Part shown: one piece after another, positions 22,491 through 62,119 of the stretch
How the letters are laid out: the number at the start of each line of letters is the position of its first letter
Numbering within the stretch: the first letter of the stretch is position 1
Assembly: GCF_963675165.1 (NCBI RefSeq)
Contig: NC_087377.1
Span: 10,092,632-10,156,631 of the forward strand
Source: Halichondria panicea
Taxonomy: Eukaryota; Porifera; Demospongiae; Suberitida; Halichondriidae
Direction: 5' to 3'
DNA length: 64,000 nt
Position numbers and translations under genes: made by a program
The notes under the pieces: model-generated
The model's input: only the letters and a program-made list of their open reading frames with translations
The model's database searches: none
What the model was told of the DNA's origin: nothing

Positions 22491-22668
22491 CCCATTTTCA
22501 CTGTTCTCAGTGGCCTGATTCTTATCTTTACTCGGTAGCGACATTATTACATACTTCTGTGAGCAGTGAGGCTGTGTGATGTTATGAATTTCGTCATGAC
22601 GAATAGTTAGGAAGCCCCCCATACATGTGTTGCAGTTGCATGTCTTAGGGATGTTGCTGAGCTGTCAG

Positions 22669-23200
22669 TTATATCTTATACATAATTATAGGGCGTCTCT
22701 GAAATCTCCTTTGTGTAACAGGAAGCTGTGTGTGCATGCCTATGGGTAGAACTGATAGCCATGATGAGGCTCCTTTTTCGCTTGCCAAATCTGTGTGATG
22801 TTTCAGATCACTGGGTATAACATCATTAGCTTGTTGAGCATGTTCCACACGGTTCAGGGCTCTCACATCTCTTTTAGCGGCTGCTGTTTTCTCCAGGTCC
22901 TGCATTCTGATCCATGTCTTGACGACAGACTATAGGGGATTACTCAGATGCCTTGTAGAATTGTGAGGACAGGGTTGCATGCAGGGTTAACAACGCCCAA
23001 TCTTCCATGTCTCACAGGGAGAGCAAGTAGATCTCTTTCTAACGTTGAACAAGGTGGGAGACCTGATAGAGCGGGGATGAGAAGATGTGTTATTCCTGTC
23101 TCCAGAGGAAGGAGGAGATTTGGGATTGTTTGAAGTAGGAAAGTCCATCTACCTGTGAGACCATTATTATGTGAAAGCTGCATATGCAGCGTAGGGTTGA
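22669..23200 (-). mobile_element. Retroelement polyprotein remnant (reverse-transcriptase 3' region)
   Basis: Two adjoining minus-strand frames read GLTGRWTFLLQTIPNLLLPL, RDLLALPVRHGRLGVVNP and LASEKGASSWLSVLPI. These phrases are typical of the C-terminal part of reverse-transcriptase polyproteins common in sponge and cnidarian genomes. That comparison is from memory of the family, not a search. Frames are broken and no RT catalytic core is seen. A copy lies in S' at 46605-47136. Confidence 0.6.
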
Positions 23201-24580
23201 TACTGCAACACAGACGAGGCGTTAATTCGACTTTCTGTGTACATTCCTTAACTTTTCCAGTAACATAAAAAAAACAGCTGTAAAACTGCATGTGAGGACC
23301 ATTACCACATTGACCATCGTCATCGACATTGATCATCAAGTGAATAAGGTCAAATTGACATCGATCGTGATATCGGTATCGATCATCGCGACATCGACAT
23401 TAAACATCAAATGAACAAGGTCAATGATATATATAATTCTTAGACATGAATTTTGTCCTCTATGGCGCTCCATATACGTACGCATCAATCTATGTGTAAA
23501 TGGAAAATCCATTGTCAAAAATCGCATTAGAAATCGATCTTCAAAAATCAATTTTATATTGGATGCATACACCAATTTACATTCTGCATGAATTTTGTCG
23601 CAAACGGCATTCCATACTAGTCTCGCGGGCCATACTTCGAAAACATACTACGTATTGGTGACTATAGCCAGGTTTTCATGTTGAGTTCAAAACGATGGTA
23701 TTTTAAGCATTTTCACACAAAAATGTACCACAAGCATTCAAAAGGGGTGTCGTTTACAATCGTCTGCCCTTGCTAAGAAGTTGACAAGCTCCACTGAGTG
23801 TACTGTTGGTTGTACAATCAGGCACTCTAAAGGATCAAGACTCACTGTATTGCTTTCTTATATAGCTGATGGATATAGCTGCAGTCAACAGAGTGAATAG
23901 GGAGCCCAACAGTTGGAAAAACTAGGGTTTCATTATTCCAGGCAGAAATAGCGAAGACCTCTTCTCTCCAGAGTTACTGAACGTGATATGGGGGCAGAAA
24001 TCAGTGCAATATATTTGTATGCTCAGCTCTACAGATCTAGATCTACAATCAATAATACTGTAAGCTCAAATTAAGTTATACTTGTGACAACCAACCTGAA
24101 AACCTCCAGTCAATCGTATAGCCACATGGCATGGTTATATACGCATGTGAAATATAATATTATTATATATTGCATTTAAAATATCGCATCCAAAAACAGT
24201 AAAATCCCTGAAAACGTTATAATCACAGCTCTAATTACTAATATTCATATCTACAGCTAAAGTTTTTCAACTGGCTTCACTTCAAACTTCACTTCAATTC
24301 TTCTGACCATTTGTAAAGCCGATTGCTTCTGAAAGAGACTTAGATAGTAAAATTATAGTCCAAAAATCATTATTAATTTTATGTAAATCACAGCTCTAGC
24401 AACTGTACTACCCGCTATTTGGTCAAACAATGTTGTGTCTTCCGTTAGCTAAGCACTAGTGGTTTTGTGGAGGATTGCATGCTAACCCACGAACATAGCA
24501 AAAATTAAACCCCTTAAAAATGTCACGTTATAAAACCCATTTTCACTGTTCTCAACCTCTGGTTCTTATCAATGAAGCAT
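23201..24580. other. Spacer in block S, no gene seen
   Basis: 23300-23430 has a twice-repeated unit rich in GACATCGAT/ATCGATGTC-type half-palindromes ending in GAACAAGGTCA. The remainder is AT-rich without supportable exons. 24530-24570 is a short copy of 22470-22520 (AACCCATTTTCACTGTTCTC). Confidence 0.5.
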
Positions 24581-27304
24581 CTATAACCCATTCCTTGACT
24601 TCTTACCTGCAATGCAGTACTTCTTCCCTCCCCCGGTCTTGCATCGCCTGATACAGTAGAAACAGCCTATGATGGCCAACACCAAGGCAACGGTACCTAC
24701 CACCGAGCCCACAATGGTGACACCTATCACGGCCTCCTGGGACAGTATCATGCTGGAGTCAGCTGTGCATGGGGGAATAGGATGTGAGTCACTTGCTACT
24801 TCAGTTTCACTTTTAATTAAACACACGTAAACGGATTCATGCATGGTACTGCAACTCCCTCACTACGTATAAACCCATTTACTGATAATTAAACAAAAAT
24901 GTGCGGCTGGCTGCCTATATAATTATATCTTTTACAGTAATACCAACAACCAAATGAGGCTTTAGAGCACAATAAATAAGTCACGTTGTAAAAAATAGAT
25001 GGTCGCAATAATTATTGTAAGTCTAGCTGAGAATTGTCAGGGGGCCTGTATCATAGCAACGTTCGTAGGTTACGCTTACGATTATAATATCATTGTGAGT
25101 GAATTCAAATTTGAACGATATGCACGCAAACTATCCATGTCATTTGTAACCAATACTAGGACCATAACACATCACCAAGGATATTAAACAAAACTGTTCG
25201 CGGCTCAAAGAGCAGTTTGCCTCAGGTTCTTTGAAAGTCAACGGGAAACCTTTGAGAGTGCACATTCTCAAAAGCAACTCAATCCTCATATAAAAGCACC
25301 GGTACTTATAATTGCCATCACTCTCTCTTAGCTACTCACCCGTGTTGAATGTAAACAGACTGCTTTGTTCCCCCGCACCGCCAGCGTTGACCCCGTAAGC
25401 CACAGCTGTGTACTGTGTTCCCGGGCTCAACCCACCAACAGTCACTTCAACCACCTCCCCTCGTGAGAATGCTCCAGTACGATTACTCATAGCAACTAGT
25501 TGGGTACTATCACGTATCTCCACAACGATATATTCTATTGGCTCTGTGGCTATTTCTGACAGCGTCACTTGCAGAATGATGTAGGTCTCCGTGATGGACA
25601 TTTGCACAGTCGGGGCCCCAGGGAGAACTGGGAGAGGAGAAGATTATAACTAAGAGTAAGATCTACGCTATTACACACTATACAATGTTTTGTTCATTGT
25701 TTTTGTACAATGTCATAGTCTCAAACAAATGTTGCCGCTGTAATTGCAATATTTGCATGCATAGGCATCAGTAGAATCTCACATAAATTATTATCGTATA
25801 GCGGATTATGTTGTACTTTTGTACACGAGTATTAATCCGAAAATTAAAACAGCGAAATTGTTATAATTATAATTATTATGTGCAATAGGTGCTACGTTAC
25901 TATTCTGAGCTGTTAGAATAAATGTAGTTCATCCGAAAATGTGCACCAACGAAAATTACTCGCTATACGGTACACCAATTTAAACCAAGGGCTTAAAAAG
26001 AGAAAAGGACATGCAACTTACTATCTACCCTATGTCTTCATGTCAGAGGCAGGATATACTACCAGTAGTGGCGGCAGAAGTCAAGCATTCGCGCACGGGG
26101 AATGTCTAAAAATAGTAACAGTATGAAGTTGGATGATTGAGTTGCATACCCTCTTCTCCTTATAAGCCCTTGTTTAAACAAAGCATATCCACTAGTACTG
26201 ACTTACTGAAGCTCTGTCTAGTGCTGGCCGCCATTGTCAGAGATCGCTGGTTTGTGAGAGATACAGAGAACTCCAAGTCAGTCGAATACTCCAAACTCTT
26301 GACCTTGTCACTGACCACCATTCCCGTCAATGTGTTCCGGGACGTTGATCGCACGTCACTGACCGGGAAAGTACGTCCATTGACTGATAAAGAGATGGTA
26401 GTGATGTCACCTCCTCCAGTGTAGTGCAGGTCAAAGGTGAGGCTTAAAGCAGTCGAGTTGAGACGTTGAACATCAGCAGAGATGATGAGGGGAGCTGTGC
26501 AGTGGAGACAAGCTCACCATAATTGGTAGCTTCTAAACACATGGCGTATGGTAAATTTTGCATTGTAAAAAGCTAAAATTTTACCAAAGGATTATCTAGT
26601 AAAGGGACATCCAAATGCACTAACCTGCTGCAGGAGTGGTGAACACTACAGGATCAGTGCTGACACTCCCGTCCACATTGGCAGCTGTCAGAGAGAGAGT
26701 GTAATCATTACCAGGCTCCACCTCAAAAACAAAGATCTCACTGACTGAGGAGGGCACCTGTAGTGACCAGGGAAACAATAATTATTATTTTTTTTGATAA
26801 ATTAAATTGAGGCACGTAGAGGTCCTGGGTTATAGCAGTCGGTCAGTGTGTTCGTGTGTCTGATTCTAAACAAATGGGAGGCTCCAGTTTATGAATGCTT
26901 AGTTTCTTTGCTGAATCTGCTGTGATCTTATAGTCTCTGTTCCAAATTGCAAGGCCTAGCTCCAGCTGGGGATCAATTTAAAAAACACTGTCCTAATATT
27001 TATTAACCTAATTATTATACCTATTACTGTTTAATTACAGTTGGCCTTTCGCCATTTAAAATAAGGTTCCCCATGCACTGTACATGTGCACAGATGTTAC
27101 TTAATACCATGTTACCTGAATGATGGCAGGAGACGGTTGGGAGACGGTAATTAATGAACAGGGTGGAGGCTTGTTGATCGGGTGTGGTGTGAGTGAGAGT
27201 CCATGTGATATTGTAACGTGTTGTATTGATACTAGCGACTGTTAGTGAAGTCGGTAGAGCAGGCGGTACTATCGGAGGAGGTGGAGAAAGCATTACATCG
27301 CTGT
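24581..27304 (-). pseudogene. Receptor H: truncated fn3 x3 + TM gene in block S
   Basis: Exons: 27116-27304 and 26625-26757 (fn3 in two exons), 26207-26494 (fn3-like), 25340-25627 (typical fn3, SPGTQYTAVAYGVNAGG), 24581-24762 (TM VTIVGSVVGTVALVLAIIGC, then a short Cys/Lys tail, stop at 24581). The first exon is 189 nt against 185 in the S' copy. The extra four bases (TTAATTACC for TTAACG) shift frame. There is no signal peptide or Ig exon upstream, because the kinase exons 27466-28467 begin 160 bp away. I read H as a 5'-truncated dead copy of the 3' half of receptor J. Confidence 0.75.
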
Positions 27305-27465
27305 CTGAATGCTACAGTTTATATGCGCTATATAATTTATAGTCTATATAGTCCAGGGCATGCAAACTACCATAATACAGTATACACGCATGCATTAGAG
27401 GTGTTCATACATGTAGAGGTGTTATTTTACGCACATGTACTACAGGATTGGCAAAACGCACGCTT

Positions 27466-28467
27466 CTATTGATTTACGTATCTACAATCAAGATAATCCA
27501 GAACTTTCTCCAACTTGGCTGCTAGCTCATCGAAGGATGGCCTCTCTTCACAATCCCTGTACCAACAGCTGGTCATCAGCGAGACCCTGTAATAACACAA
27601 TCATTATCATAGTTACATAACCAACGCCAATGTTACCCAACACAACGTTACAATCACAGCCTTATAGTATAATTATAGGCTGCCTTGACAAAACAATAAC
27701 GTTTTCAAGAGGTGAACATGAATGTAAATTTCCTGCTAGTATAAACAAGTGTATAATAATTACATTCGATCTGTTGAGCAGGCAGTTCTTGCCCTCTCTG
27801 AGTAGAGCCACCATGGACATTGGGTCCACTCCAGGGTAGGGAGTCCGGCCACTACTGAATACCTCCCACACAGTCACACCATATATATACATACAACCAC
27901 TGGACTGTATTATTGAGAATACAATAACAAGGCTAGTCGAAATGTCAAGCAAGTATATCGTGTCAAGCTTTAAAGAGTATATAGACCATGTGTAAGTGTA
28001 GTCTAGAACATCAGAAAGTATTACATTCTGTAGCTCAATCTGTTCAAGGACTGGTTGGTAAGATAACTATATATAACAACTTACCACGTCAGTCTTCTCG
28101 TTGAAGATGACATCATTTAATTTTAGACTCTCCACTGCTAACCATTTGTACGGCAGTTGGACTCCCTCAGTTTGACTCTGTCTGAAGTATCCTTGCGCAT
28201 ACATGTCCTCAGCTAGACCAAAATCACCAACTTTGAGGTTACCATCAATTTTGAATCCAACATATGAGGATTAAAGACTGTGATTGCATTGTGATGATTA
28301 GATATGTGCGAATCATCATGTTACTGTGCAAGTACACTAACTAATTCAGTGTCTCACATGCAGTTCCTGGCAGCCAGGTCTCAATAAACGAAATTGTGCT
28401 AAGAATGCATGATACACCATTCCAAGAGCTATCTGATGACAAATTTTCAACAGCAGCTTCCTCACAG
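27466..28467 (-). pseudogene. Receptor tyrosine kinase, 3' exons of the kinase domain, broken
   Basis: Four exons: 28358-28467 (KICHQIALGM, then DLAARNC shifted in frame), 28085-28260 (KVGDFGLAEDMYAQGYF, then LPYKWLAVESL), about 27780-27890 (YGVTVWEVFSSGRTPYPGV) and 27466-27586 (LMTSCWYRDCEERPSFDEL, stop). DFG, the activation-loop Tyr and the WLAVESL motif identify a receptor-type tyrosine kinase. Damage: four bases are missing at the catalytic-loop HRD (TTTATT-GAGACCTGG), the acceptor before exon 28260 reads CATAT instead of AG, and the Trp-Ser before YGVTVW is lost. The ATP-binding lobe and ectodomain are absent from the window. Confidence 0.8.
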
Positions 28468-43866: not shown

Positions 43867-44553
43867 GGATGGTCCCAGAGCCACTACTGTACGTAGACTA
43901 AACATCACATGAATCACTTCCGTTTCCAATCCCTCCTTTACTCTATCTATGGTCGCATCTAATTGTTCAGAACGGAAGTTATTTAACCACAACCACACCC
44001 CTAGAATTCTTCACATAATAATTATAAGCCTCAGGGCACAACATTCATGAAGGAGTAGTGGATGATGCTGAAAGCCTCCTAGAGCTGTACTTAGGAGGCT
44101 TTCAGCTCTACTTTACTAAGTAGACTACTATGAGTACATTGGTACCAGGACTCCAGTGAGCAAGCTATAGAAACAGGTGCAGGTGGACGACGAAAACAGA
44201 TCACCCATTGTTACCAAAATAACATTAAAATTGTTATTACAAATATTGAACATGATTAATTTGTAGGTAACCATTCAAGGCAATTAAATAATGTTCGATA
44301 GTATCCCATTATTGTTTCGAGCATTCGAAAGCAGCATTGCAGTGCCATGTCAACTTTTGGTCAGCACGGTACTTTACTTCAACATCTAGTTGAACACGTC
44401 TCCAAGATACACGCGTACACACAAAGTGGGCTGTCCACTCTTCATGTATAGGAGTTGATACTTCCCATCATTTGCTGTTTCCATTGAACCCAGCAACCAT
44501 TCACTCGGATCTAGAAAACACTGAAAGGCAACAAAAATTGCAGCTCTAACGTA

Positions 44554-45217
44554 CAGTACACTCTCGCTATTCCGGCTCCCTGAAGTACGGCCACCCGATA
44601 TACCCACCATTTGGCTTGGCACAGAATGCTAGCTATATGTTTACTGCACAAAACTCACCCTAAAGTACGGCCACTCGCTATTCTGGTTACCTGCCGTGCT
44701 GGCTGTTCCAAACTAGTTGGGCGGAGCCCGACCGTCCCTGACGGGAGGTCGGGTTTCAGGCCTATGTCAGGATTTGTCTTGCTGAACTATGTAACACGTT
44801 GATAAGCAGCTATGAATAATCATTTATTCTGAAGTGGGTGTTAACCAATTTTACCTTGCTTGAGGTTGCGCAACCGGACGTGACACAGACCACAGTAGAA
44901 ATGCTGCAATCTGATTGGGCTGCAACTATAGTTGCAGCAAAAGACAAATCCTGGCTTGAAACCCTACCTCCTGGTCAGGGACGGTCGGGCTCCGCCCAAC
45001 TAGTCCCAAACAAGGTAATTTTATACGACTTTAGCAAATAAAATTTAACAAAATGATTCATTATCCTACATTATCCTCGAGACAAGAACCGCAAAGCAGT
45101 AATTAGATTCGAGGTAAGGTCGTTTTTAAGCCGCGGCTATTTCCTGAGCTATAGCCACCTCGCTATTCCGGCGCCAAGCTGCATGGTCCCAAGGGTGACC
45201 GGATTAACGAGAGTTTT
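44554..45217. mobile_element. pogo/Tigger-like element with nested MITE (S' copy)
   Basis: Same as 20614-21278, including the nested element at 44717-44999 flanked by CTAG. Confidence 0.75.
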
Positions 45218-45441
45218 AACAGAGAAGTGGAGACAACAAAACGTAGTAACATACGATACTCTCGGAGACAAGATAAGGCACTAAGACAATCATTTGCATG
45301 GTGAAGTTCTACATTCAAATGACACGCTCTCTCTTGGTACCAGGAGTGTATGAAGAGGAGTATGCAACTGTAGCTTTCAGTTGTAGTGTAAACCAGGTTC
45401 CGGTATGTTTTGGTGCAATATTTTGCGTGTTATTTACTCAC

Positions 45442-45573
45442 GTCTGCACTCGGGCTCCATTTCGTCCCATTGTGCAACGACGTCGTCTAGATCCGGACGG
45501 CATGTCCTCATTTCATTCCCTCCATGCAGCTCAAATCCCTCAACACAGGTATATACATAGCCTCAATCCCAGG
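45442..45573 (-). pseudogene. Sushi second-half exon, S' copy, with nonsense codon
   Basis: Identical to 21501-21632 except for a few bases. One change turns the transposon-derived CGA codon into TGA (plus strand CTCAATCCC instead of CTCGATCCC), closing the frame. Confidence 0.6.
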
Positions 45574-46604
45574 CTGAGTTTTCACTTTTATAACGGTTAG
45601 GCGAACAACTAGGCCTGGTACTAGTTGTCTGTGCATGCGTCAAATTTTCATTGTATTTTGTAGTCGGCAAAAATATAGGTAATTTGAAAATTCACACACA
45701 CAGAGTGTATACAAAACATGCACATAGGAAGCTGCTTCACAAGGGGAGTTGTCGGTTGTGCTGCAGCATGATTATAGTGACCCGGACCCAGGGCAACTTC
45801 AAAATGCCTTAAATAACGTTTCAAGAAGGTTTAGCAGGCTGCTGGACCTCTCTGATTCTAGGCCCCTACTCAGGTAAACCTTGTTTGAGAAACGTAGATT
45901 CTTGAAAATCCGTAAGCGCCAATAAAGTACCACCCACGGCCGTTCATTGCCTTTATATAGGGAACCTAGTTTTCAACCATTAAAATAATGTTGTGCATAT
46001 AATATAGGCGATGCATGGTATAATAATTATATTATATATAGCTATAATTATGGCAGTGGTCTTCATTTTCCATAAAGTGTCTGTCCATGAATATAGCATT
46101 ACTGTGACAGCCATGGTAATAATTATAACGGGTATACTGCCAATATACGGCTGTGGTCAGACAGCTAGTTTTATGTATAAGAAGTCTTTGTGGCGCAACC
46201 ATGGTACATGCAATAACCTATTGTTGCCAGGTTCCAGAACAGCAATAAAATTATATTTTATACTGCAGCAAATAAAGTCGACTTACGCACCTGCACAAAA
46301 GGTTCGACACCACTCCACACTCCATTGCGACTAGCAAGTCCTCATGTCAAACGGGGCCTGAGTGTCACCTGCGTAGACAATTTCACCATTGGCAGGGTCG
46401 GAAAGGTCAGGACACACGTTATAGAACCCATTTTCACTGTTCTCAGTGGCCTGATTCTTATCTTTACTCGGTAGCGACATTATTACATACTTCTGTGAGC
46501 AGTGAGGCTGTGTGATGTTATGAATTTCGTCATGACGAATAGTTAGGAAGCCCCCCATACATGTGTTGCAGTTGCATGTCTTAGGGATGTTGCTGAGCTG
46601 TCAG

Positions 46605-47136
46605 TTATATCTTATACATAATTATAGGGCGTCTCTGAAATCTCCTTTGTGTAACAGGAAGCTGTGTGTGCATGCCTATGGGTAGAACTGATAGCCATGA
46701 TGAGGCTCCTTTTTCGCTTGCCAAATCTGTGTGATGTTTCAGATCACTGGGTATAACATCATTAGCTTGTTGAGCATGTTCCACACGGTTCAGGGCTCTC
46801 ACATCTCTTTTAGCGGCTGCTGTTTTCTCCAGGTCCTGCATTCTGATCCATGTCTTGACGACAGACTATAGGGGATTACTCAGGTGCCTTGTAGAATTGT
46901 GAGGACAGGGTTGCATGCAGGGTTAACAATGCCCAATCTTCCATGTCTCACAGGGAGAGCAAGTAGATCTCTTTCTAACGTTGAACAAGGTGGGAGACCT
47001 GATAGAGCGGGGATGAGAAGATGTGTTATTCCTGTCTCCAGAGGAAGGAGGAGATTTGGGATTGTTTGAAGTAGGAAAGTCCATCTACCTGTGAGACCAT
47101 TATTATGTGAAAGCTGCATATGCAGCGTAGGGTTGA
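46605..47136 (-). mobile_element. Retroelement polyprotein remnant, S' copy
   Basis: Copy of 22669-23200 with the same broken frames. Confidence 0.6.
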
Positions 47137-48508
47137 TACTGCAACACAGACGAGGCGTTAATTCGACTTTCTGTGTACATTCCTTAACTTTTCCAGTAAC
47201 ATAAAAAAAGCAGCTGTAAAACTGCATGTGAGGACCATTACCACATTGACCATCGTCATCGACATTGATCATCAAGTGAATAAGGTCAAATTGACATCGA
47301 TCGTGATATCGGTATCGATCATCGCGACATCGACATTAAACATCAAATGAACAAGGTCAATGATATATATAATTCTTAGTCATAAATTTTGTCCTCTATG
47401 GCGCTCCATATACGTACGCATCAATCTATGTGTAAATGGAAAATCCATTGTCAAAAATCGCATTAGAAATCGATCTTCAAAAATCGATTTTATATTGGAT
47501 GTATACACCAATTTACATTCTGCATGAATTTTGTCGCAAACGGCATTCCATACTAGTCTCGCGGGCCATACTTCGAAAACATACTACGTATTGGTGACTA
47601 TAGCCAGGTTTTCATGTTGAGTTCAGAACGATGGTATTTTAAGCATTTTCACACAAAAATGTACCACAAGCATTCAAAAGGGGTGTCGTTTACAATTGTC
47701 TGCCCTTGCTAAGAAGTTGACAAGCTCCACTGAGTGTACTGTTGGTTGTACAATCAGGCACTCTAAAGGATCAAGACTCACTGTATTGCTTTCTTATATA
47801 GCTGATGGATATAGCTGCAGTCAACAGAGTGAATAGGGAGCCCAACAGTTGGAAAAACTATGGTTTCATTATTCCAGGCAGAAATAGCGAAGACCTCTTC
47901 TCTCCAGAGTTACTGAACGTGATATGGGGGCAGAAATCAGTGCAATATATTTGTATGCTCAGCTCTACAGATCTAGATCTACAATCAATAATACTGTAAG
48001 CTCAAATTAAGTTATGCTTGTGACAACCAACCTGAAAACCTCCAGTCAATCGTATAGCCACATGGCATGGTTATATACGCATGTGAAATATTATATATTG
48101 CATTTAAAATATCGCATCCAAAAACAGTAAAATCCCTGAAAACGTTATAATCACAGCTCTAATTACTAATATTCATATCTACAGCTAAAGTTTTTCAACT
48201 GGCTTCACTTCAAACTTCACTTCAATTCTTCTGACCATTTGTAAAGCCGATTGCTTCTGAAAGAGACTTAGATAGTAAAATTATAGTCCAAAAATCATTA
48301 TTAATTTTATGTAAATCACAGCTCTAGCAACTGTACTACCCGCTATTTGGTCAAACAATGTTGTGTCTTCCGTTAGCTAAGCACTAGTGGTTTTGTGGAG
48401 GATTGCATGCTAACCCACGAACATAGCAAAAATTAAACCCCTTAAAAATGTCACGTTATAAAACCCATTTTCACTGTTCTCAACCTCTGGTTCTTATCAA
48501 TGAAGCAT

Positions 48509-51500
48509 CTATAACCCATTCCTTGACTTCTCACCTGCAGTGCAGTACTTCTTCCCTCCCCCGGTCTTGCATCGCCTGATACAGTAGAAACAGCCTATGA
48601 TGGCCAACACCAAGGCAACGGTACCTACCACCGAGCCCACAATGGTGACACCTATCATGGCCTCCTGGGACAGTATCATGCTGGAGTCAGCTGTGCATGG
48701 GGGAATAGGATGTGAGTCACTTGCAACTTCAGTTTCACTTTTAATTAAACACACGTAAACGGATTCATGCATGGTACTGCAACTCCCTCACTACGTATAA
48801 ACCCATTTACTGATAATTAAACAAAAATGTGCGGCTGGCTGCCTATATAATTATATCTTTTACAGTAATACCAATAACCAAATGAGGCTTTAGAGCACAA
48901 TAAATAAGTCACGTTGTAGAAATAGATGGTCGCAATAATTATTGTAAGTCTAGCTGAGAATTGTCAGGGGGCCTGTATCATAGCAACGTTCGTAGGTTAC
49001 GCTTACGATTATAATATCATTGTGAGTGAATTCAAATTTGAACGATATGCACGCAAACTATCCATGTCATTTGTAACCAATACTAGGACCATAACACATC
49101 ACCAAGGATATTAAACAAAACTGTTCGCGGCTCAAAGAGCAGTTTGCCTCAGGTTCTTTGAAAGTCAACGGGAAACCTTTGAGAGTGCACATTCTCAAAA
49201 GCAACTCAATCCTCATATAAAAGCACCGGTACTTATAATTGTCATCACTCTCTCTTAGCTACTCACCCGTGCTGAATGTAAACAGACTGCTTTGTTCCCC
49301 CGCACCGCCAGCGTTGACCCCGTAAGCCACAGCTGTGTACTGTGTTCCCGGGCTCAACCCGCCAACAGTCACTTCAACCACCTCCCCTCGTGAGAATGCT
49401 CCAGTACGATTAGTCATCGCAACTAGTTGGGTACTATCACGTATCTCCACGACGATATATTCTATTGGCTCCGTGGCTATTCCTAACAGCGTCACTTGCA
49501 GAATGATGGAGGTCTCCGTGACGGACATTTGAACAGTCGGGGCCCCAGGGAGAACTGGGAGAGGAGAAGATTATAACTAAGAGTAAGATCTACGTTATTA
49601 CACATTATACAATGTTTTGTTCATTGTTTTTGTACAATGTCATAGTCTCAAACAAATGTTGCCGCTGTAATTACAATATTTGCATGCATAGGCATCAGTA
49701 TAGAATCTCACATAAATTATTACCGTATAGCGGATTATGTTGTACTTTTGTACATGAGTATTAATCCAAAAATTAAAACAGCGAAATTGTTATAATTATA
49801 ATTATTATGTGCAATAGGTGCTACGTTACTATTCTGAGCTGATAGAATAAATGTAGTTCATCCGAAAATGTGCACCAACGAAAATTACTCGCTATACGGT
49901 ACACCAATTTAAACCAAGGGCTTAAAAAGAGAAGAGGACATGCAACTTACTATCTACCCTATGTCTTCATGTCAGAGGCAGGATATACTACCATGCAGTA
50001 GTGGCGGCAAAAGTCAAGCATTCCGCACAAGCTGAATGTCTAAAAATATATAGTAACAGTATGAAGTTGGATGATTTAATCAATCAGTCTAAGAATAGCC
50101 TGAGTTTGCATGCCCTCTTCTCCTTATAGCCCTTGTTTACAAAGCATATCCACTAGTACTGACTTACTGAAGCTCTGTCTAGTGCTGGCCGCCATTGTCA
50201 GAGATCGCTGGTTTGTGAGAGATACAGAGAACTCCAAGTCAGTCGAATACTCCAAACTCATGACCTCGTCACTGACCACCATTCCCGTCCATGTGTTCCG
50301 GGACGTTGATCGCACGTCACTGACCGGGAAAGTACGTCCATTGACTGATAAAGAGATGGTAGTAATGTCACCTCCTCCAGTATAGTGCAGGTCAAAGGTG
50401 AGGCTTAAAGCAGTCGAGTTGAGACGTTGAACATCAGCAGAGATGATGAGGGGAGCTGTGCAGTGGAGACAAGCTCACCATAATTGGTAGCTTCTAAACA
50501 CATGGCGTATGGTAAATTTTGCATTGTATAATTTTACCGAAGGATTATCTAGTAAAGGGTCATCACATCCAAATGCACTAACCTGCTGCAGGAGTAGTGA
50601 ACACTACAGGATCAGTGCTGACACTCCCGTCCACATTGGCTGCTGTCAAAGAGAGGATGTAATCGTTACCAGGCTCCACCTCAAAAACAAAGATCTCACT
50701 GACTGAGGAGGGCACCTATATAGTGACCAGGGAAACAATAATTATTATTTTTTTTGATAAATTAAATTGAGGCACGTAGAGGCCCTGGGTTATAGCAGTC
50801 GGTCAGTGTGTTCGTGTGTCTGATTCTAAACAAATGGGAGGCTCCAGTTTATGAATGCTTAGTTTCTTTGCTGAGTCTGCTGTGATCTTATAATATAGTC
50901 TCTGTTCCCAATTGCAAAGCCTAGCTCCAAGTTCATCAATTAAAACACCGTCCTAATTTATGAACCTAATTATTACAGCTATTACTGTTTAATTACAGTT
51001 GGCCTTTCGCCATTTGAAATAAGGTTCCCCATGCACTGTACATGTGCACAGATGTTACTTAATACCATAATACCTGAATGATGGTAGGGGACGGTTGGAA
51101 GACGTTAATGAACAGGGTGGAGGCTTGTTGATCGGGTGTGGTGTGAGTGAGAGTCCATGTGATATTGTAACGTGTTGTATTGATACTAGCGGCTGTTAGT
51201 GAAGTCGGTAGAGCAGGCGGTACTATCGGAGGAGGTGGAGAAAGCATTACATCGCTGTCTGAATGCTACAGTTTGTATGCGCTATAGGCCAGCTAGGGCA
51301 TGCAAACTACCATATACAGTATACACGCATGCATTAGAGGTGTTCATACATGTAGAGGTGTTATTTTACGCACATGTACTACAGGATTGGAAAAACGCAC
51401 GCTTCTATTGATTTACGTATCTACAATCAAGATAATCCATTGTTAAACAGGGGAAACATTAACAAAAGGTGTTAGAATAGATTTCACTAAACTCACCTTT

Positions 51501-54500
51501 TACAGTAAACTCAAACATTTTGCTGACTGTTCTCTGGTCTACTGGAACCACTTCATAAGAGTTAGTGATAGTCACTTGATACTGACCACTGTCACTTCTA
51601 GTTAGAGAGTTGAAGTTGAGAGAAGTCGTTGCATTACCGAAACCATCGTCCAACCAAACTGTTTCCACCTGTGCCCCCGAGGGCATGTTCCCACTGAGTC
51701 TGGTCCAGCTGACAGTAGTACTGTTCATTGTCCTGCTCACAAAAGAGACCCTCAGGGATTGTGTGGATCCTCCGCTGACTTGTATCGGAGACTGAGAGTA
51801 GGCGGTGATCCATGGAGGAACTGTGCATGTGTGTGTATGTGGGCGAGGGTGTATATGTGTACTTGCCAGTACTGATAGTGTCATTGACTACCACCACAAG
51901 GTTGATAAAATTACAGTTCTGAAATTTAAAATGCAGGTGAATGGGAGTAGAGTTATTCAGAGCGAGAGCAAGTGTACAAACCTGATATAGCACATACAAA
52001 ATTATAGATTAAAACACAAGAGGAATTACTCGTAAGCTAGATAACCTCATGCTCTGTAGCTCTCACCTACTACAATAGCTTCCGATTGTCGCTGAGTGTT
52101 CACTTGGTCAGCAGTGTCCGTCAAATAAAACAAGATATTGTATCGATACTCTCCAGCCAACTCGTTCTCCACCTGGGCATTTGTTATCACGGGATCGGCA
52201 GGTGTATTTGACGAAGCATGTTGCCACACCCCCAACACATTATCCGTTAGCGTTGTCGAGTACTCGAGTGTAATACTACCACCCTTCAGTACGTACTGTT
52301 TTGGCGGGACAATCAGCTGGGACGAATCTGAAGATATGGAGCGATCATAATCATCATGAGTCTACATTCATATCCAGACTACGAGAGACTACATGTACTG
52401 TACATATACACAGTATGTGTTGTGACTTGTTGACAGCTGATCATGCACATTAGCAATCATGCATGATTAATGCATAAACTAACGGAATGTGATTGCAACA
52501 AAATATTCATTTCAAAACCAACAGAATGTCAAAATCACAAAAAGTATTATCATAAACAGATATAACCGCACACATATTCTAGATATTTGATACACACCAG
52601 CTACACTTCTGAGCTACCCCCCCCCCCAGTCGCTAGTAGATTGAGTACTCACCTGCAACATTGAGGAACCCTGCCGACACAGGACCAACCACGCTACCAT
52701 TGTTAAGCACCACCCTACAACTGTACTCCCCAGCATGCGAGAGCTGGACATTCTCTATAGCCAGCGGCAGAGCTGATGACGACGATGTATTGCGTACTGG
52801 CTGACTTAGGTCACCATTGTGAATCCATTGCAGCTCGTCAAGCATGTTTGTATCACTACGGAAATGGCCTCCATAATAAACATTATAATTTTGGGAACTT
52901 GACATTTGCCTATTATAGCTATGAAGCTATAATATTATACTCTTAGATCCCATTTGAGTGTATTTAGCAGGGAACTACATATGTACACTATGTTATATAG
53001 AACATGGGCATGAGGTATCTATGTGTTATAGTGTCCAAAGCTCGAGGGCGTAACATACATCCACTAAAAATACTTGCAATCTGACCCCGTGTATTGGCAC
53101 AGTCGATTAAATTCAGCTCCTTCATTGGAGAAAAGCGTCTTGTTTTCACGATTTAATTCTATCCCTGCAAAACAAACAGTTGCATTGTAAAAATGTTCAA
53201 GGCATTCACTTAAAGTGCCCGAAACCCCTCTGTCCTAGAATTCTCATATGAAATTCATGAAATTTCGTATAAACTATAATTTAATAGTGAAAGATTTTCC
53301 ATGAAAATCAGATTTGTTCACCAATTTCACTCTTCAAGAGTGATCAGACATAACCAATCATTAAATTGAGCGTGATAATTGATGTGTCTCTTTGGGTTCA
53401 TAGTAGTATCAACATCATAATGCAAGCATCAGGTACTAGTTGGTATTAACAGGTGTACATCGTCAAATGAATGAGCGACCACCACTAAATAAAGTGAATT
53501 CCTTTCGATTAATCAACCAGATACTGTTCGTGGGATAAGTACTACACACTGACACTGGCTTTACAAAACGACATTCATGAATACTCACACAGAAAAGAAT
53601 TTAATCATTTTATACCACAATCAAGCACAGGACCAGTGCTATATAGCTGATTGTAAAAAATACAGTATCGCAAAAATATTTCATCTTTGCACTCATAATT
53701 ATTATTGATTATTATGCCTCGAGGCGTAGCCGCACGAGGGATACGGTAAAGCTGACTGTGTGTGTATCTGTCTATGTGTGTATTCCAGCTATAACTGCTC
53801 AACGGTTGCAATGTGACGAAAACTAACAGCTTCTATAGGTTTCTAGCCACGTTCTCTTCGATTTTGATTCGTGGATTAGCAAACTAAAGCTTCTTTCTTG
53901 AGTTATGGCTAGTTTGACTCACATTGAAGGCTGTTGCAGTCTCTTCAGAATCTTTCATAGTTCGCACAAACTTTCTATTCAACTTATGAGTTAGCCTTGC
54001 ACTTAAGCACTAGCTTTTTGTTGGCTACAAGAGTTAGAAAGCTGCTAAAGAAGCTACCGTACTTCTTCTAAATAAGGCACCTCTTTTTAATAATTACGAT
54101 ATGAGCAAGGGCCATAATTAGATTTGGTCCAGGGAGGCGCGTATTTAGAAGGGCGCCTTATAAATAGAGGTTATTTGAACAATCTTGGTATCCTTGATTC
54201 CAGGCCGTGTCTCATCATCCTCAAGCTTTCTGAAAAAAGATGTGATGTTAGCCTCATTTACAACGCACCACCAAAAAAAATCTCTCTAGCCACCTGGAGC
54301 TCTAGCTATATGGAGACTTTAAAATTACTTTTCAGTCTGGGTGGCGCCTTATTGGAAGGGCGCCTTATTTAGAAGAAGTACGGTAGCTATTTTAGTAGCC
54401 ATTATTGATTAAACTTGCAAACACACCCCTATTCCTGGATGTAGATCTAATGCGCATGCGCGCTCAATACCACGTGTAAGAGAATCCATTTTGCAGAATC

Positions 54501-54630
54501 AGAATCAATTTTCTTCTTTGTTGAGGTCCAGGTAAGCCACAAACCAACCTTTTCTGATGACTCTTTTTAGACTGCTTTCCTCTGTAATTGAATTCTGTGA
54601 TTTTAGACTGCACACATACCCGCACACACA

Positions 54631-54695
<65 letters not shown>

Positions 54696-57600
54696 CCGCA
54701 CACACACACACACACACAAACCAACAAACACGTACCACACATGCATACTCACATGGATGCGTGCACACACACACACATACCTAAACATGCGAGCAATGTC
54801 CTCTATTATCACTTAATTACATTATTTTCAATTTGTATTATTCGTTACTGTGTTTAATGTTCATTCAATTGCTAACACCTATTTTGTCAATTTGAAATCA
54901 TATAATTATTGCAAATTATTATAACACTCTAATACTTTTGAGCGAAAGCAAAAACATGGCGAGAGGCATTAGCACAGCGCCAGCTTGAACACTAGTTGAT
55001 AGAGCAGTTATTATAGCAAGTATACCAAAGCAATTTTCGAGCGAAGTTTGCATGTTAATTGCTTCAAATACTGGTGTGTACCCGTGGTTACCGTAAGGTG
55101 TTTAGCTATTACTGTGAGAAACTAATTCATGAAACTTAAGAGTGTTCAGTCTTACGTAGTTAGATGGGCACTTGTTCTCAATCCATGCACTACTATTGAG
55201 GGACTAGCTAGTATATGGGATCATGTGCTAAAGAATTAGATTGATATAATAAGTGAATTAAGAGATCGAATTACACTCAGTGAAATGTTACCTCACACAT
55301 CAAGCACAACCACATACAAACGCCGACATATTACATGCTTCAATGCATGACCTCTTGTGTGGGACTGCCTGGAGATATTCACTCACTGTTGGGGAGGGTC
55401 ATATTGCTATACTTCCAACGACGCTGTTGTATGTATACGGCTTAGTGATCACAGAGTAGTGTAGGTGTGTCACTATAGCTAAACCCATGCACTCATCAAC
55501 ACCACCACACAACACCCACACTTGTTGAAATGTAAATTGAGTAATACATTTATTTACCTATATAATTATGCTAGAGGGAGAAGCATACATTAATTCATGG
55601 AACAGCTGCATGTATCCATTAATACCGAGAGTGTAAAAATCAAGTAAAAGGCCGGTGATATCAGGTGTGCCAAAGGGCAGCATTTTAGGTCCCCTTCTAT
55701 TCCTCATCTATGTAAATGATCTGCCTGATAAAATCCAGCATGTGAGATGCTTTATGTTTGCCGATGACACCAAACTGCTAAAAGCTATCAGCAAAGAAGA
55801 GGATGAGCTTTTACTACAAAGATATCTGAATGCCGTGGACACATGGTGTGAAAAGTGAAAAATAAGTCTAAATGTAGATAAGTGCAAGACTATGAGAATG
55901 TCCCTCAGAAACAAATCTCAAGATACCTACGAATACACCATCAATTCTAATGACTTGAGAAAATCAGAGACTCAAAGAGACCTTGGAATTCTAGTTCACC
56001 AAAATCTTACTTGGAGGCAGCACCACAGTCTAGTCTGCAAAAAATCATACATCTCTCTCTACTTAATCAAGAGGACGATCCCAGCAAACTCTTTAACTAA
56101 TCTAAAAAAACAACTGTATCTATCTCTGGTAAGAAGTAACCTATCATACTGCTCTCAGTTATGGAGGCCAATGTATATCAAAGACATACAAAGTATAGAA
56201 CGTGTACAAAAAAGAGCTACGAAATACATTCTGAACGACTTTACCTCATGTTACAAATCAAGACTATTGAAACTAAAATTGTTACCACTAATGCATTGGC
56301 TAGAATTGCAGGACATTATGTATCTTGTAAAATGTCTGAAATTGCCCCAAAATACCATTGCTCAACTAGTATCTTTCATATCAAGTAAAACAAGAGCAGG
56401 TCAGACTGGAAGGAAACTTTATGTGACAAGGGGAAAAACCAACTAGACTATACAAGACATTTCTACCTAAACAGAATTACCAAATTATGGAACTCACTCC
56501 CGGCTGATATATTGGACTTTTCAGCATCTGTCTACAGTATAAAACAAAAAGTACGGCAATATTTAATATCTAATTTTGAAAGAAATTTTAAACAATCAAA
56601 TGTGTGCTCGTACCACCTGATATGCCCATGCCAGAACTGCCACACAATTTAATGATTTTTTGTTTTGTTTGTTTTGTTTTTTTCTTGTTTTGTTTTGTTC
56701 CAGCTGCCCCTGAAAAGGGGTAAGTCTGTCAGCATTAGGATGTATGCCTGCTAGACCTTACTACCTTACTCTATTTTCTGTAATGTCATATGCTGTAAAG
56801 CTCTAATAATAATAATAATAATATAGGTGCCAACTGTCCCGAATTGGCAGGGACAGTCCAACTCTGTTAGAATCATAAAACAATGCACAGAAACAAGAAA
56901 ACTTAAGGTATAGCCAGCGATCGATTACGACAGATGTTTTTAATATATCTGATGATAGATTATGATTAGTGCTCTCTAGTGGTGGTCTTGGATTTCCAGT
57001 GCCTTGCTTGGTTCTCTAGATATGGGCCTTTACCCACTCGCCAGACCACGCCCAGCTACTTTCGGCCTTCATATCTAGAGAACCAAGCAAGGCACTGGAA
57101 ATCCAAGACCACCACTAGAGAGCACTAATCAAGATCTATCATCAGATATATTAAAAACATCTGCCGTAATCGGATCGCTGGCTATACTAGCTAGCAAGCT
57201 AGCTAGCTCGATCAGCAAATAAGTGGGTGGGGCTAACTTTATTTGTGCAATTAATAATGACGTCATTATTGTTATGAGCATGCGCAGTGAGCTAGTGAAG
57301 CCACATCAGAGCTGAGCCTGCCACAACAATTCACTTCTTTTGTATGGAAGGTATAAATTATTGTCTTTGCACCAGAGTTAAATTATTGTGAATTCCCCAA
57401 AAGTTTCCTCCTTCAATTGACATTTATTGTAGCTACTGTACATCGATCGCTATAGGCTAGTGGTTGCTTTATCAGAGAGATCAGGGTAACCCAATTACCT
57501 AGTGGGAGAGTAGACTGAGAAATGCATCATCAACACAAATCGGTGCTCTGTTGAACTGGGAATATAGCGAACAAGATAAAAAGCCATTTGTGTGTGTGTT

Positions 57601-60600
57601 CATGCATGACCTAACAACTCAAGCTCAGTTAATTACAAATTTAAATTTAAATCCCAAGCCAATTCATCTAAGCTAGTTGTCGACCTAGCATTATTGTGTC
57701 CGGGATTTTCAAGGTTGCAGAGTATAGCTAGGGGTTGGTAGATATAAATTATGTTCGAGATAACTAGTATGCTATTCTTTTATGCTCAAGTGAACAGCCA
57801 GAGATACAAAAGAAAGGGGATTGGAAACGACCGCCCACGCCCTATGTAAAAGGACTGACATCCGGTGAAGCACTCCGTGTAATTATTGCGCTCGCAAATA
57901 ATTACATGGAAAAGTTTTATATCCCTGGTTTCTAGCTCTCCTATCCACTAGAGATCACTCAGGGCCTGGGAGATACTTGAGAGAAGTAAGCTTATACCAC
58001 TGACAAGCTCTAAGTCCGTTGTCTTTACTCTGTTTCCAATTTTTTTGAGTTTAGCTTGAATTACTCTATGTCAACTTTTCTCTGTCCCTCCTGTGAAGTC
58101 AAAACAGCAAAGGACATTGCTTGACTTGGTTATTATGTATCTAAGTGCTACATAGAATGGCTTCATGCTATAGATAAGCTGTACTGTTCATAAACGTTTG
58201 CAGTATAGTCCTTCAAACTGCTTTAGTATACTTTTAGACACGCCAGGGGCGTAGCTACCATTGTTTCCTGGTTGCCCAGAAACCCCCCCAGGAGCTGCTG
58301 AGAAAATTGGGCAGGGCTCCCCAATAGTTGAAATCAAGCAGCCCTGCCCATCTTTTCATGCACGTGGCTGCAAATCATGTAGAGATAGCACCGTGAATCG
58401 TTTCACTTTGGCTAGCTTTGTCTCAGCTAACTAGCTAGCTACCTCAAACAAAGAAGACCAAGACTTAAGTTCTAGTATCAATCCTGCATGCTCCAGTATT
58501 CTCAGACTCAGCTTTAAGCACAACTTTATTCGATATTCAGGAAGGACAAGTTTAGAACAATCTCAGCCACATGAAACCTCTCAGGTAAATGTAATGGTGC
58601 TCAGCTAGACTAGCAATACACAATTGACACCTGCCTTTTAGAATGTCTATAGCTAGCTAGACTAGCTAGTCTAGCTAGCTTCTCACAAACATGTAAAAAA
58701 AGTCATTACAAACAATGAGCAGTAGGTGTAACCAGTAGGTGTGCCCCAATCAAGAGGGTGTGGCACCGAAAGTGGGCGTGGTTAAAATTTCCCGGCGCTA
58801 CCGCGCAGGCTGGTTTTTCAAAGGAAACCCCTATGTCAAAAGTCTGGCTACGCCCCTGCACGCCACGGGCCTGTCCCTCCTACGACTTCATAGTAAAGGC
58901 TATTTCTTCTTGCATAGCATTTATTTGTCTAGTAATAGTGGCTGCATGGCTTAGTCGACTTTTTAGAGCTAAATTCTCTTTACTTTTTAGAAAAATCAAC
59001 ATTAAAAATGATCAATTTCACTGTTTCTATGTACAGCACATTGTAGAGCAGTCAAGACTGGTAATGAGCATGCTGACTATAAATATAATCCTTTGTAGTT
59101 TTAGCCACGCCCTATAACGCGGAATGCTTCACGCAAAAATTTCGTAAAAATTTCGTTTCCAATCCCCTTTCTTTTGTATCTCTGGAACAGCCTATTATTC
59201 TTTTCAAATCGCCTATTATTCCGACATAATTATATTATTCCTCCAAAGCACAATACAGACCATAATTATGTGATATTGCACAAGTAACATCAAACTATTA
59301 AATTAATGGCCACATGTCTCTATCTATAACACTATAATACAGATACCAAGGAGATATTTATAACCATCAGTATAATTATATACTTATATACTTCCGTTAT
59401 GACCATCAGGCCTACAACTACTGACCTGCATGTACTTCCAAAACCTGCCTATTATTCTCATAATTATTATAAAGGTACTTATTATGCCAGCATAATTCTC
59501 ACCAAAAAAATGTGCCTATTATCCTCAACATAATATTATGCCAGCATAATCTACCAACCCCTACTCCTGCTGGGATAATTAAGTCCAAAAAGGTAACTAT
59601 ATATTATGGCTTGGAAGCTGAAATCATGAACAGAATTCAGTTTCTTGCACTATTCAGTTGCTGTCTATTTATCGCTACGATTAAACATTGTTTTGCAGTT
59701 TGTGGGTCGGGCTCTCCGCAAAATCATACTGAGCATGCGCAGGAAGCAACCGCTAATAATAAATCTCCATTGAGTGTCATTACAAAATAGGGATAAAGCC
59801 CTCGATAAATTTTTTTGGTCCCGGAAATATTACTTGGAGGTTAGCACATGTGTAGATCATCTGATCACGAAAGAACTTCAAGAACGTGGAACCATCAAAA
59901 ATGTTTGTGATGATTAAATAAATGCGCTGAACAGTCGTAACAATTAATGTACTCAATCACACAAAAAACATGTGATATATAATATACCTTGCGATGCGAT
60001 ACTGTAGCTTGTGTCTGTAAGGATAGAGAATTAAAAAAATTGGCTACCACAAGTAAATTTGATTTAAATGAGCTTACTAAATCGACTTGAAGCATTTTTG
60101 GTACCCGTCAGTGTATCGATAATAACAATTGCATCATACACTTTCTCCAAATCAACTCCATCATTATACGCTTCCGATATAGTTGCTATGCCACCGCCAC
60201 GGTAACTTCCAATTCTAGTGGAAAGACTTAGGGCTTGAGTTGAGGCATCCAGGATTCTCAGTTCATAATTGGCGTCTTGAAACCAGCACACTGTTGGAGG
60301 CTGTGTGCAAGACAATAAATGTGCTGCATTTTTTTATTTTAGAAACAGTAAACTATAAGTAAACAGACACACATGATTATGTATACACAATGAAGTATGG
60401 AAATTAATTTTGATTCCATTGAATGGCATATATCTTGTATATGTATACGAATTAAGATTTCAGTGTGCGTAGATATAATTGTAAGATTCACCTTAAATGT
60501 GACGTTAATAATGGGGGTCAAGTCTGCTGTGAAGGTAATTACAACAACAGGAGGGAGCAGAAAGTCACCAAGAACTGTAAAAAAACACAACTTTGGAAAA

Positions 60601-62010
60601 AACCCTGACAGATAAAAATTGTATGACTGTACGAGAGAGCACAATATAGATAGATAGCTTTGCATGCAGTAGTGAAATACCCTTATATCAATTCACTCAA
60701 AATGAAAGTGCCAGAGATAAACATTGTAATGTATGTACACAAGGGGGTTTGGAGTATTTAAAACACCAAAACACAGTATCAGCATCCTGCACAACAATGG
60801 TACAACCACGGAGAATTCCCATGTTTGTCCTATAGCTGGACCACTGTCGATTATGCACTATACAGCTATTAATATCTATATAACACCTTATAGTCGGAAG
60901 ATTATGCATGCCTAATACATTATTAACAGACTGAGAACCATGCATGCAGTACAGTAACTACAATAATTAGCCTTCTAGTTTTCCCGGCTTGTGCAGTGCA
61001 TGCAGTATTGGTGGCTTGTGCGTGGGAGGAGGTACATTGTGTTGGATGTACTCGTTAATACAATGACACCAGCATAAAAATTGACTCACATATGGGAAAT
61101 CCACCAATGGCGACACCTGCAGCACTAGGCCCTATACTGTTCGTGGCAATGATCTCAAACGTTATATTGTGGCAATCTCTGTGAATACTGTCCATGGTTA
61201 ACACATACTCCAGGGCACTCAGTGAGGCATTGTAGAGGGGTGCTGAGTGGTCAGCAGTGCTTCGAATGATTAGAGTGTAGTTGAGAATAGGAAAACCAGT
61301 GTGAGCAAACGGCTCAAACCAGGATACCCTTAAAGCTGTTGTGTTGACCGTAACTAGCTCAGTGACAGGGGCATTGAGAACATCTGTAGGGGATATTATT
61401 GAGACATTTACTGCATGTCCTCTATGATTATGAGGTAGTATACACGTGTATATATGCATGGATACCGGTTAGCAGAACAACAGTGCTGGCTGAACTGATA
61501 ATCACTATGATACATGCATGCATGCAGTACTTACCGACAATATAGAGAAATACAGGTGGTTCAGATCTAACAGTGGCCTGATCAGAGCCTGTAGCAAGAC
61601 ACTCGATCTTCGTCCGATTACGTCCTTGAGTTCTCACACCGATTCGTCTCGTCACCTCAACATTAGGAAAGTCATGTATATCGTCGTACAGTATTATCCA
61701 GCTGGGAATATTGTTAAAGAGTGTTTCGCCATTGATGTACCAGAATACGGCAGAGGCTCGAGCATGACAGGTGAACTGGGCTTCATACTGGGTCACAGGG
61801 ACAGTTTGTGTCACTGGGCCATCCAGTATTTCTGCAAAACAAAAGTGTATGCAGACAGATCTTAGGTTGATCTATACATGATCTATTTTTTATGCACTGT
61901 ATATAGCTGATCAATCTTGATTTGTTGGATGAAATACCTGGAACAACTTGAGTAGACAGTCCCACTCTTGATAAGCAGATGACAAAAAACAGCTTTAGTG
62001 CTAGCATCAT
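48509..62010 (-). CDS. Receptor J: chimeric SP-Ig-fn3-fn3-like-Ig-Ig-Ig-fn3 x3-TM
   Basis: Exons in order: 61938-62010 (signal peptide MMLALKLFFVICLS), 61535-61831 (Ig), 61090-61383 (fn3), 60492-60574 with 60078-60300 (fn3-like), 59988-60014, 53074-53164 with 52653-52897 (Ig), 52067-52327 (Ig-like), 51497-51820 (Ig), 51074-51258 with 50583-50715 (fn3), 50168-50455 (fn3-like), 49267-49554 (fn3), 48509-48690 (TM and short tail). Every junction has GT/AG ends and matching phase. The sum is 2994 nt, about 997 aa plus stop, with no internal stop. The TM is VTIVGSVVGTVALVLAIIGC and the tail is about 25 residues, rich in Cys and Lys, with no tyrosine motif. If the donor at 48533-48534 is used instead, an unseen tail exon follows. 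The 6.8-kb intron 59987-53165 holds the LINE and MITEs. The likely role is surface recognition or adhesion. Transcription as one unit is inferred. Confidence 0.6.
51411..51438 (-). pseudogene. Last codons of the tyrosine kinase gene stranded in a J intron
   Basis: Reads DYLDCRYVNQ and stop, the same as the end of the kinase last exon at 27466-27497. The exon is cut at 51438, the block S' border. Confidence 0.85.
51497..53164 (-). CDS. Three Ig-domain exons unique to receptor J
   Basis: 53074-53164 with 52653-52897: LCQYTG, ELQWIHNG and AGEYSCRV give the Cys-Trp-Tyr/Cys pattern. 52067-52327: ITLEYS, VWQHAS, AGEYRYNI, without the cysteines. 51497-51820: LRVSFVS, VSWTRLSG, SDSGQYQVTI. They are not present in block S. 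Their source gene is not in the window. Confidence 0.7.
53165..54050. other. J intron sequence with a CTCGAGGCGTAGCCGCACGA repeat
   Basis: 53715-53960 starts with CCTCGAGGCGTAGCCGCACG and GGGATACGGTAAAGCTGACT, which looks like one end of a dispersed element. A related CGCATGCGCAAGCGAGGTA lies at 11730. No gene seen. Confidence 0.35.
54054..54384. mobile_element. MITE, TIR TACCGTACTTCTTCTAAATA
   Basis: TACCGTACTTCTTCTAAATAAGGC opens and its complement GCCTTATTTAGAAGAAGTACGGTA closes the element when read across positions 54055-54080 and 54360-54384. Similar in style to 6404-6742 (TACCGTAAGACC). Confidence 0.85.
54617..54775. repeat. (CA)n/(GCAC)n simple repeat
   Basis: Interrupted CACA and CGCACGCA tracts. 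Any frame across it is only Thr-His or Cys-Val repeats. Confidence 0.95.
54785..55650. other. J intron sequence, no gene seen
   Basis: AT-rich, with no repeat ends or exons that I can support. Confidence 0.4.
55652..56824 (+). mobile_element. 5'-truncated non-LTR retrotransposon (Jockey/CR1-like RT)
   Basis: RT phrases GVPKGSILGPLLFLIYVNDL, the catalytic FADDTKLLKAI (FADD), YCSQLW and ERVQKRATKYIL show the 3' half of a non-LTR reverse transcriptase. One TGA after WCEK (55856) and a frameshift near 56435 break it. The C terminus continues as RITKLWNSLPADIL. It ends in (ATA)n at about 56805-56824, as CR1/Jockey-group elements often do. It lies in the long intron of J, opposite in orientation. 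Confidence 0.9.
56909..57186. mobile_element. Long-hairpin MITE, arms about 118 bp
   Basis: TATAGCCAGCGATCGATTAC at the left pairs with GTAATCGGATCGCTGGCTATA at the right. The arms (for example GTGCTCTCTAGTGGTGGTCT, ATATCTAGAGAACCAAGC) are almost perfect complements around a 40-bp loop at 57028-57066. Confidence 0.9.
57729..59563. mobile_element. 1.8-kb non-autonomous DNA transposon with nested MITE
   Basis: TAGGGGTTGGTAGAT at the left, ATCTACCAACCCCTA at the right. Inner inverted repeats are CCAGAGATACAAAAGAAAGG at about 57799 and its complement at about 59162. A CAGGGGCGTAG element is inserted at 58244-58858. No transposase. Confidence 0.75.
58244..58858. mobile_element. MITE, ends CAGGGGCGTAGC/GCTACGCCCCTG, CACGC target duplication
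   Basis: CAGGGGCGTAGCTACC and GTCTGGCTACGCCCCTG ends, flanked by CACGC on both sides. Same family and same 5-bp duplication length as 41614-41972. Confidence 0.8.
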
Positions 62011-62040
62011 CTCCAACAATTTACAATTTAGCTTATCTGA
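59870..62040. repeat. Block P' (copy of 17226-19370)
   Basis: Direct repeat of the 5' part of gene C. All six exon frames and splice sites are retained here, supplying the N terminus of receptor J. Confidence 0.9.
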
Positions 62041-62119
62041 GACAGTCGAACAGCAACTGCACACTGTTGCATGCATGCAAAACCCTGCATACACATGGTA
62101 CGTGGTTTCCATTATAATC

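Follow-up and report, generated by a model that had tools for sequence, protein, structure and literature searches.

Introduction

Partial duplication is a well-known source of chimeric genes. In Drosophila yakuba, partial duplication in tandem is reported to yield chimeric gene structures (PMC5460883). Paired immune receptors are a second point of reference; Siglec-11/16 are reported to carry similar ectodomains on different signalling ends (PMC5701461). Here we describe a window of 64,000 nucleotides (C1:10092632-10156631) from the 131-Mb genome of the demosponge Halichondria panicea, on whose assembly the whole-genome searches were run. The minus strand of this window carries 15 exons that may encode a young chimeric receptor. 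Exons 1-6 (block P') are a partial copy of gene C, another gene model of the window, and exons 7-15 resemble a receptor with a transmembrane (TM) segment and three exon sets each of Ig type and of fn3 type, abbreviated Ig3-fn3x3-TM. On balance it is probable that this receptor copy had its own 5' end replaced by the gene C front and lost its tail. The interest of the locus lies in this apparent replacement of the start and in the reuse of the front as a cassette.

Results

Both parents of the 15-exon model can be identified, gene C for exons 1-6 and receptors of one paralogous cluster for exons 7-15. The latter recur three more times in the genome, at parA (C1:11.130-11.136 Mb), parB (11.170-11.183 Mb) and parC (11.189-11.194 Mb), in addition to a fragment, S, in the window. 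The NCBI protein 'neural cell adhesion molecule L1.1-like isoform X2' of H. panicea (P0001) belongs to the parC locus, which it matches at 100% in 8/8 exon pieces tested. The preliminary description of this locus took the three Ig domains to be unique and set between two duplicated blocks. However, all three paralogues carry the Ig exons, and the Ig exons together with block S' are a single inherited receptor unit, so the chimera has one new joint and not two. S' and S are direct copies with 96.8% identity that share the fn3-TM exons, as had been proposed, but S cannot serve as an intact parent because it is 5'-truncated and frameshifted. The combined architecture, which had been held to exist in neither parent, was indeed absent from both: no P-type match was found in C1:11.12-11.20 Mb, and near another P-type place the only receptor exons are those of S, which precede gene C by about 5 kb, in the reverse order.

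A single open frame spans the joint. An exact rebuild with the original borders (exon 7 to 53074, exon 8 from 52897, exon 11 from 51258) reproduced the 2994 nt in phase that had been reported, with one terminal stop, none internal, and AG/GT at 14/14 introns. We shifted the exon 7/8 and exon 10/11 borders because P0001 and conserved paralogue splice sites place them elsewhere (exon 7 donor 53086, exon 8 acceptor 52855, exon 11 acceptor 51222), which gives 2904 nt and 967 residues. The frame and the 14 AG/GT introns hold in both versions; what had been misplaced were the borders of exons 7/8 and 11. Four of the 14 junctions (exons 1 to 5) match P0002 (NCBI LOC135341740 isoform X2, 424 residues, which maps to the C3 copy described below), and eight (exons 7 to 15) match P0001. 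The splice sites of exons 5/6 are preserved in gene C, leaving exon 6/7 as the sole join without precedent. This join is in phase, which is weak evidence alone, as the chance is 1 in 3. Phase 1 is customary for Ig and fn3 modules. The exon structure as a whole is beyond chance, given the recurrence of the exon 7-15 splice sites in parA, parB and parC (parB exon 15 was not found in the stretch examined, and exon 13 of parA is shorter by 54 bases, in frame) and the contrast of exons and introns between P' and its source, P.

P and P' are direct copies with 91.3% identity, in agreement with the earlier claim that gene C exons 1-6 were duplicated. The copy sets in 20-30 bases ahead of the ATG and stops 18 bases before gene C exon 7 is reached. 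In exon 1 of P' the gene C ATG is altered, and ATGATG opens P' about one codon later; the residues at its exon 1/2 and 2/3 junctions are those of P0002. Exons are 97.2% identical (969/997) versus 89.5% for introns and flanks (1000/1118); the six exons are free of indels, and the introns and short flanks carry 20 indel events. A comparison of P', C and C3 covered exons 1-4 and part of exon 5, in which the root cannot be placed as there is no outgroup. With C3 as the third copy, the P' lineage has 0 exonic versus 5 intronic indels (P ~0.004) and substitutions at 14/883 exonic versus 26/795 intronic positions (p 0.025). The C lineage has 0 versus 10 indels and 11/883 versus 58/795 substitutions, and the C3 lineage 1 exonic and 5 intronic indels. 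These data are suggestive of constraint on the P' half. Pfam gave no family over cut-off in gene C, and the labels 'Ig' and 'fn3' of exons 2-3 therefore rest on motif reading. By eye, NPLY, YETGGPIYEEI and SEYVTI in the gene C tail (window 14318-15115, minus strand) resemble tyrosine signalling motifs. Gene C exons 1-2 also have a more remote relative, at C1:14755010-14758336 (59-78% identity).

The receptor half shows constraint. Against A, B and C (parA, parB and parC), window exons 7-15 have synonymous divergence (dS) of 0.123, 0.151 and 0.144, replacement divergence (dN) of 0.039, 0.042 and 0.040, and dN/dS of 0.32, 0.28 and 0.28, with no stops. These ratios and the polarised counts omit four inserted S columns, parB exon 15 and S exons 7-10 (absent), and the polarised counts also leave out every codon that is not identical in A, B and C. 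In exons 11-15, 15 synonymous and 9 replacement changes are common to S and S'. S' alone has 7 synonymous and 5 replacement changes (binomial 0.016 versus a neutral replacement share of 0.746), while S alone has 1 and 8 plus a frameshift (0.29, in the opposite direction). Window exons 7-10 have 11 synonymous and 12 replacement changes (0.017 versus the same share). S' was thus constrained after the S/S' split, and S looks neutral.

The 6.8-kb intron between exons 6 and 7 still holds the old 5' region of the receptor. Its promoter-proximal segment (55202-55552) has four genome copies (4/4 candidates scored), in the window and, 2-3.3 kb ahead of exon 7, in each of parA, parB and parC. The more distal segment (57456-57651) recurs at the same four places among the best 40 of 82 candidates, where a short repeat at one query end accounts for the other 36 matches. 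All matching segments line up collinearly with the paralogues, save a single repeat-like match to parB. In 3/3 paralogues a TATA-like CCGTATAAATAC precedes, by about 100 bases, an open signal-like exon (MLAALKHVICRHLCVVVI, MLASIEACIICRRLCVVVI, MLAALKCVICRRLCVVVI) that closes in phase 1 with a GTGTGT donor; in parB compensating indels preserve the frame. In the window the frame of this exon is still recognisable (ALKHVICRRLYVVVL), but nine bases including the ATG are gone (from ~55346), the donor GT reads AT (55301) and the TATA-like box is altered to TATACATA (55440). We infer that this decayed exon was the native start of the receptor. P0001 has an internal start in exon 7 (TACATGAG), which reads TACACGGG in the window and is missing in parA too. 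A scan of 53.2-59.9 kb for signal-like first exons, at the thresholds of our script, gave only CA/TG-repeat frames; a candidate at 54.6-54.8 kb was rejected as such a repeat. The intron also holds a young mobile element, bounded by 33-base terminal inverted repeats, whose longer flank occurs at no fewer than 21 other places at 99-100% identity among the best 40 of 935 candidates, and a reverse-transcriptase-like open reading frame (ORF; identity by eye) on the plus strand at 55859-56443.

In the receptor half of the predicted product, Pfam detected Ig_3 (53.1 bits, two stretches) and fn3 (44.9 bits, two stretches), with I-set and V-set over cut-off. The strongest hydrophobic segment spans about residues 917-948 of 967 and is followed by about 25 residues. 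The order of Ig domains, fn3 domains and one TM is that of L1/NCAM-like adhesion molecules. FIGQY is the ankyrin-binding tail motif of the L1 type, and it is absent from this ~25-residue tail. The 127-residue tail of the paralogues, into which P0001 continues, was found only near parA and parC, which bears out the tail-poor TM end noticed before.

A third copy of the gene C front, C3, lies at 9.888 Mb of C1 (9888085-9893102). It carries gene C exons 1-5, cut within exon 5, and ends in a new TM and tyrosine-bearing tail at 9892640-9893102 (an NCBI-annotated model); relatives of this tail occur at several C1 places. In C3/LOC135341740, an inverted-repeat piece at the joint is read as exon.

A protein search (7996 candidates scored) returned no chimera, which counts little, as gene C was likewise missed by the searches; gene C as a protein query gave no match, and the length limit alone would have excluded P0002. 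The PDB sequence search gave 0/177635 distinct sequences at E<=0.001. The structure of P0002 predicted from its single sequence was too poor to be used (mean predicted local distance difference test score, pLDDT, 38.5). A literature search at the level of titles, from which we claim no unpublished status, gave no publication title about this gene.

Table 1. Positions of the chimeric gene model, its source blocks and the elements of its long intron (window coordinates).
Feature	Positions	Strand	Remark
Gene C, 15-exon model, 781 residues, parent of P'	14318..19345	-	
Block P', partial gene C copy	59869..62042	-	source (P) 17227-19367
Block S, 5'-truncated copy	19922..27500	-	4-base frameshift in exon 11
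Block S'	43868..51439	-	direct copy of S
Exon 1, signal peptide MMLALKLFFVICLS	61938..62010	-	
Exon 2, Ig-like	61535..61831	-	C..W..C by eye; no Pfam match over cut-off
Exon 3, fn3-like by eye	61090..61383	-	
Exon 4	60492..60574	-	
Exon 5	60078..60300	-	
Exon 6, 9 residues	59988..60014	-	donor would feed new joint
Exon 7, first part of Ig domain	53086..53164	-	paralogue border; earlier 53074
Exon 8	52653..52855	-	earlier length implies 52897
Exon 9, Ig-like	52067..52327	-	paralogue splice sites
Exon 10, Ig_3 domain	51497..51820	-	paralogues and Pfam
Exon 11, first half of fn3-like domain	51074..51222	-	earlier start 51258
Exon 12, second half of the exon 11 domain	50583..50715	-	paralogue splice sites
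Exon 13, fn3-like	50168..50455	-	paralogue splice sites
Exon 14, fn3 domain	49267..49554	-	paralogues and Pfam
Exon 15, TM segment and short tail	48509..48690	-	donor after 48535 unused in model
Putative old promoter/first-exon region of Ig3-fn3 receptor	55202..55552	-	
Old 5' flank of Ig3-fn3 receptor	57456..57651	-	
Young mobile element, 33-base terminal inverted repeats	57798..59185	-	
Second element nested in the young element	58244-58858		

In the neighbourhood, fragment S sits directly behind kinase-like exons. A protein-kinase-like gene (by eye) has 3' exons (window 27466-28270, minus strand) that run into the start of block S, and its last codons, LDYLDCRYVNQ, seem to come from a part of block S that the receptor paralogues have as intron. 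Outside the window, past its P' end, a piggyBac-like transposase ORF (by eye) occurs twice, about 4.2 kb apart (L068:1868-3535 and 6117-7784, minus strand), and a neighbouring gene on the P' side has fn3-rich exons on the plus strand (L069:6064-9658). Elsewhere in the window there are partial tandem copies, ~80-96% alike, of a methyltransferase-looking ORF (by eye; 9512-13803, minus strand) and two tandem repeat arrays with ~180-base units, 88-96% alike between shifts (31052-33022).

Discussion

Homology of both halves to their parents, the open frame, the intact splice sites, the constraint on exons and the absence of the tail exons are established by the comparisons above. We favour the fusion chiefly because the receptor half is constrained though its probable native start is gone; the old 5' flank lying between the two parts, with a start exon that lacks both ATG and donor, also favours it. 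In the proposed course of events, an Ig3-fn3x3-TM receptor copy from the 11.13-11.19 Mb cluster would have reached 10.14 Mb without its cytoplasmic-tail exons, a direction that we infer, and a 2.2-kb partial gene C copy with signal peptide, Ig-like and fn3-like exons may then have come to lie on its 5' side. Since first exons have no acceptor, a transcript from P' would skip the receptor's own first exon. By default, gene C exon 6 (phase 1) would be spliced to receptor exon 7 (phase 1) across 59988/53164, and the native start, then dispensable, could decay. The predicted product is a single-pass surface protein that joins the gene C front to three exon sets of Ig type, three of fn3 type and a short tail. 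Its transcription, splicing across 59988/53164, surface display and role as a tail-poor ligand binder or decoy are predictions of this model.

Several observations weigh against the putative fusion. At the 5' side, the gene C promoter is absent from the P' copy, and a dispersed repeat lies upstream of P' at 62408-62827. P0001 begins within exon 7 and lacks the presumed native signal exon. The 6.8-kb intron contains five AATAAA, about the chance number. With regard to selection, the direct S'/S contrast has only p 0.067, and exon conservation is much stronger in the gene C lineage than in P'. The P'-C dN/dS of 0.57-0.68, on 9 synonymous and 16-19 replacement changes, is not demonstrably below 1, and the codon changes assigned to P' are 5 synonymous and 6 replacement (first two codons omitted; codons missing from C3 counted apart, with 1 synonymous and 2 replacement). 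At the 3' side, no tail exon was found at the window locus, exon 15 retains a consensus donor CTGCAG/GTGAGA (exon end 48535) ahead of the stop of the preliminary description, and the first AATAAA downstream of exon 15 comes only at 44828.

Some of these points would suit two unlinked relics, namely a partial gene C copy in P' and a receptor copy without start and tail in S', both so young that they still look intact, with nothing joining them. The uncopied promoter, the loss of the tail and of the presumed start, the fresh mobile elements that separate the two parts and the dN/dS of P' all agree with this account. We regard it as unlikely, since no frame-breaking change has occurred across 15 exons, the indels of P' fall only in introns, and S' has remained under constraint since it split from the neutral-looking S. 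Still less probable is that the receptor copy is expressed alone from an unrecognised start in its retained flank, P' being a bystander or a separate short gene. The presumed native ATG and donor are lost, the TATA-like box is changed, the internal P0001 start is altered (as noted, parA also lacks it), the next in-frame ATG (by eye) lies in exon 8 without a signal peptide, and the scan for first exons yielded nothing but repeat frames. On the other hand, the retained 5' flank, the constraint on exons 7-15 and a second donor-like GAG/GTAACA just after the signal exon, kept in 4/4 copies, are what such solo expression would leave. Duplicated blocks within one window may also recall an assembly error or an uncollapsed haplotype, but the copies, which lie on one 18.1-Mb contig, diverge by 3-9% overall and are flanked by different sequence, and we consider such an artefact very improbable.

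Under the favoured fusion, a receptor gene has apparently been caught in the middle of changing its front, with the old start region readable, the new front placed and both parents known. Together with C3, there would be two fusions of one cassette in a single sponge genome, making the diversification of sponge surface receptors testable with RNA. C3 likewise bears the gene C front (exons 1-5) on a foreign membrane end, but differs in its break inside exon 5, its short new exonic piece, its other TM and its tyrosine tail. P0001/parC has the same Ig3-fn3x3-TM exons, with 90% identity in the part common to both, but lacks the gene C front and has the 127-residue tail. We tentatively suggest, as a possibility still somewhat doubtful, that in this sponge the block of gene C exons 1-5/6 is an N-terminal receptor cassette that has been mobilised repeatedly. 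Its ends would be the long tyrosine tail in C, another TM with a tyrosine tail in C3, and Ig3-fn3x3 with almost no tail in P'. If so, one binding head has been tried on signalling and on tail-poor (decoy) bodies.

Finally, in their sequence models C, C3 and P' bear one front on three different ends, and a shared ectodomain with different tails is a feature of paired receptors. The sponge genes would thus resemble the paired receptors of vertebrates, but be made by front-end swapping. The Siglec-11/16 pair is reported to be a primate system shaped by gene conversion and with a described function (PMC5701461), and the D. yakuba chimeras are reported to be tandem and backed by RNA-seq (PMC5460883), whereas the parts of the window receptor come from different places and the receptor itself is predicted from DNA sequence.

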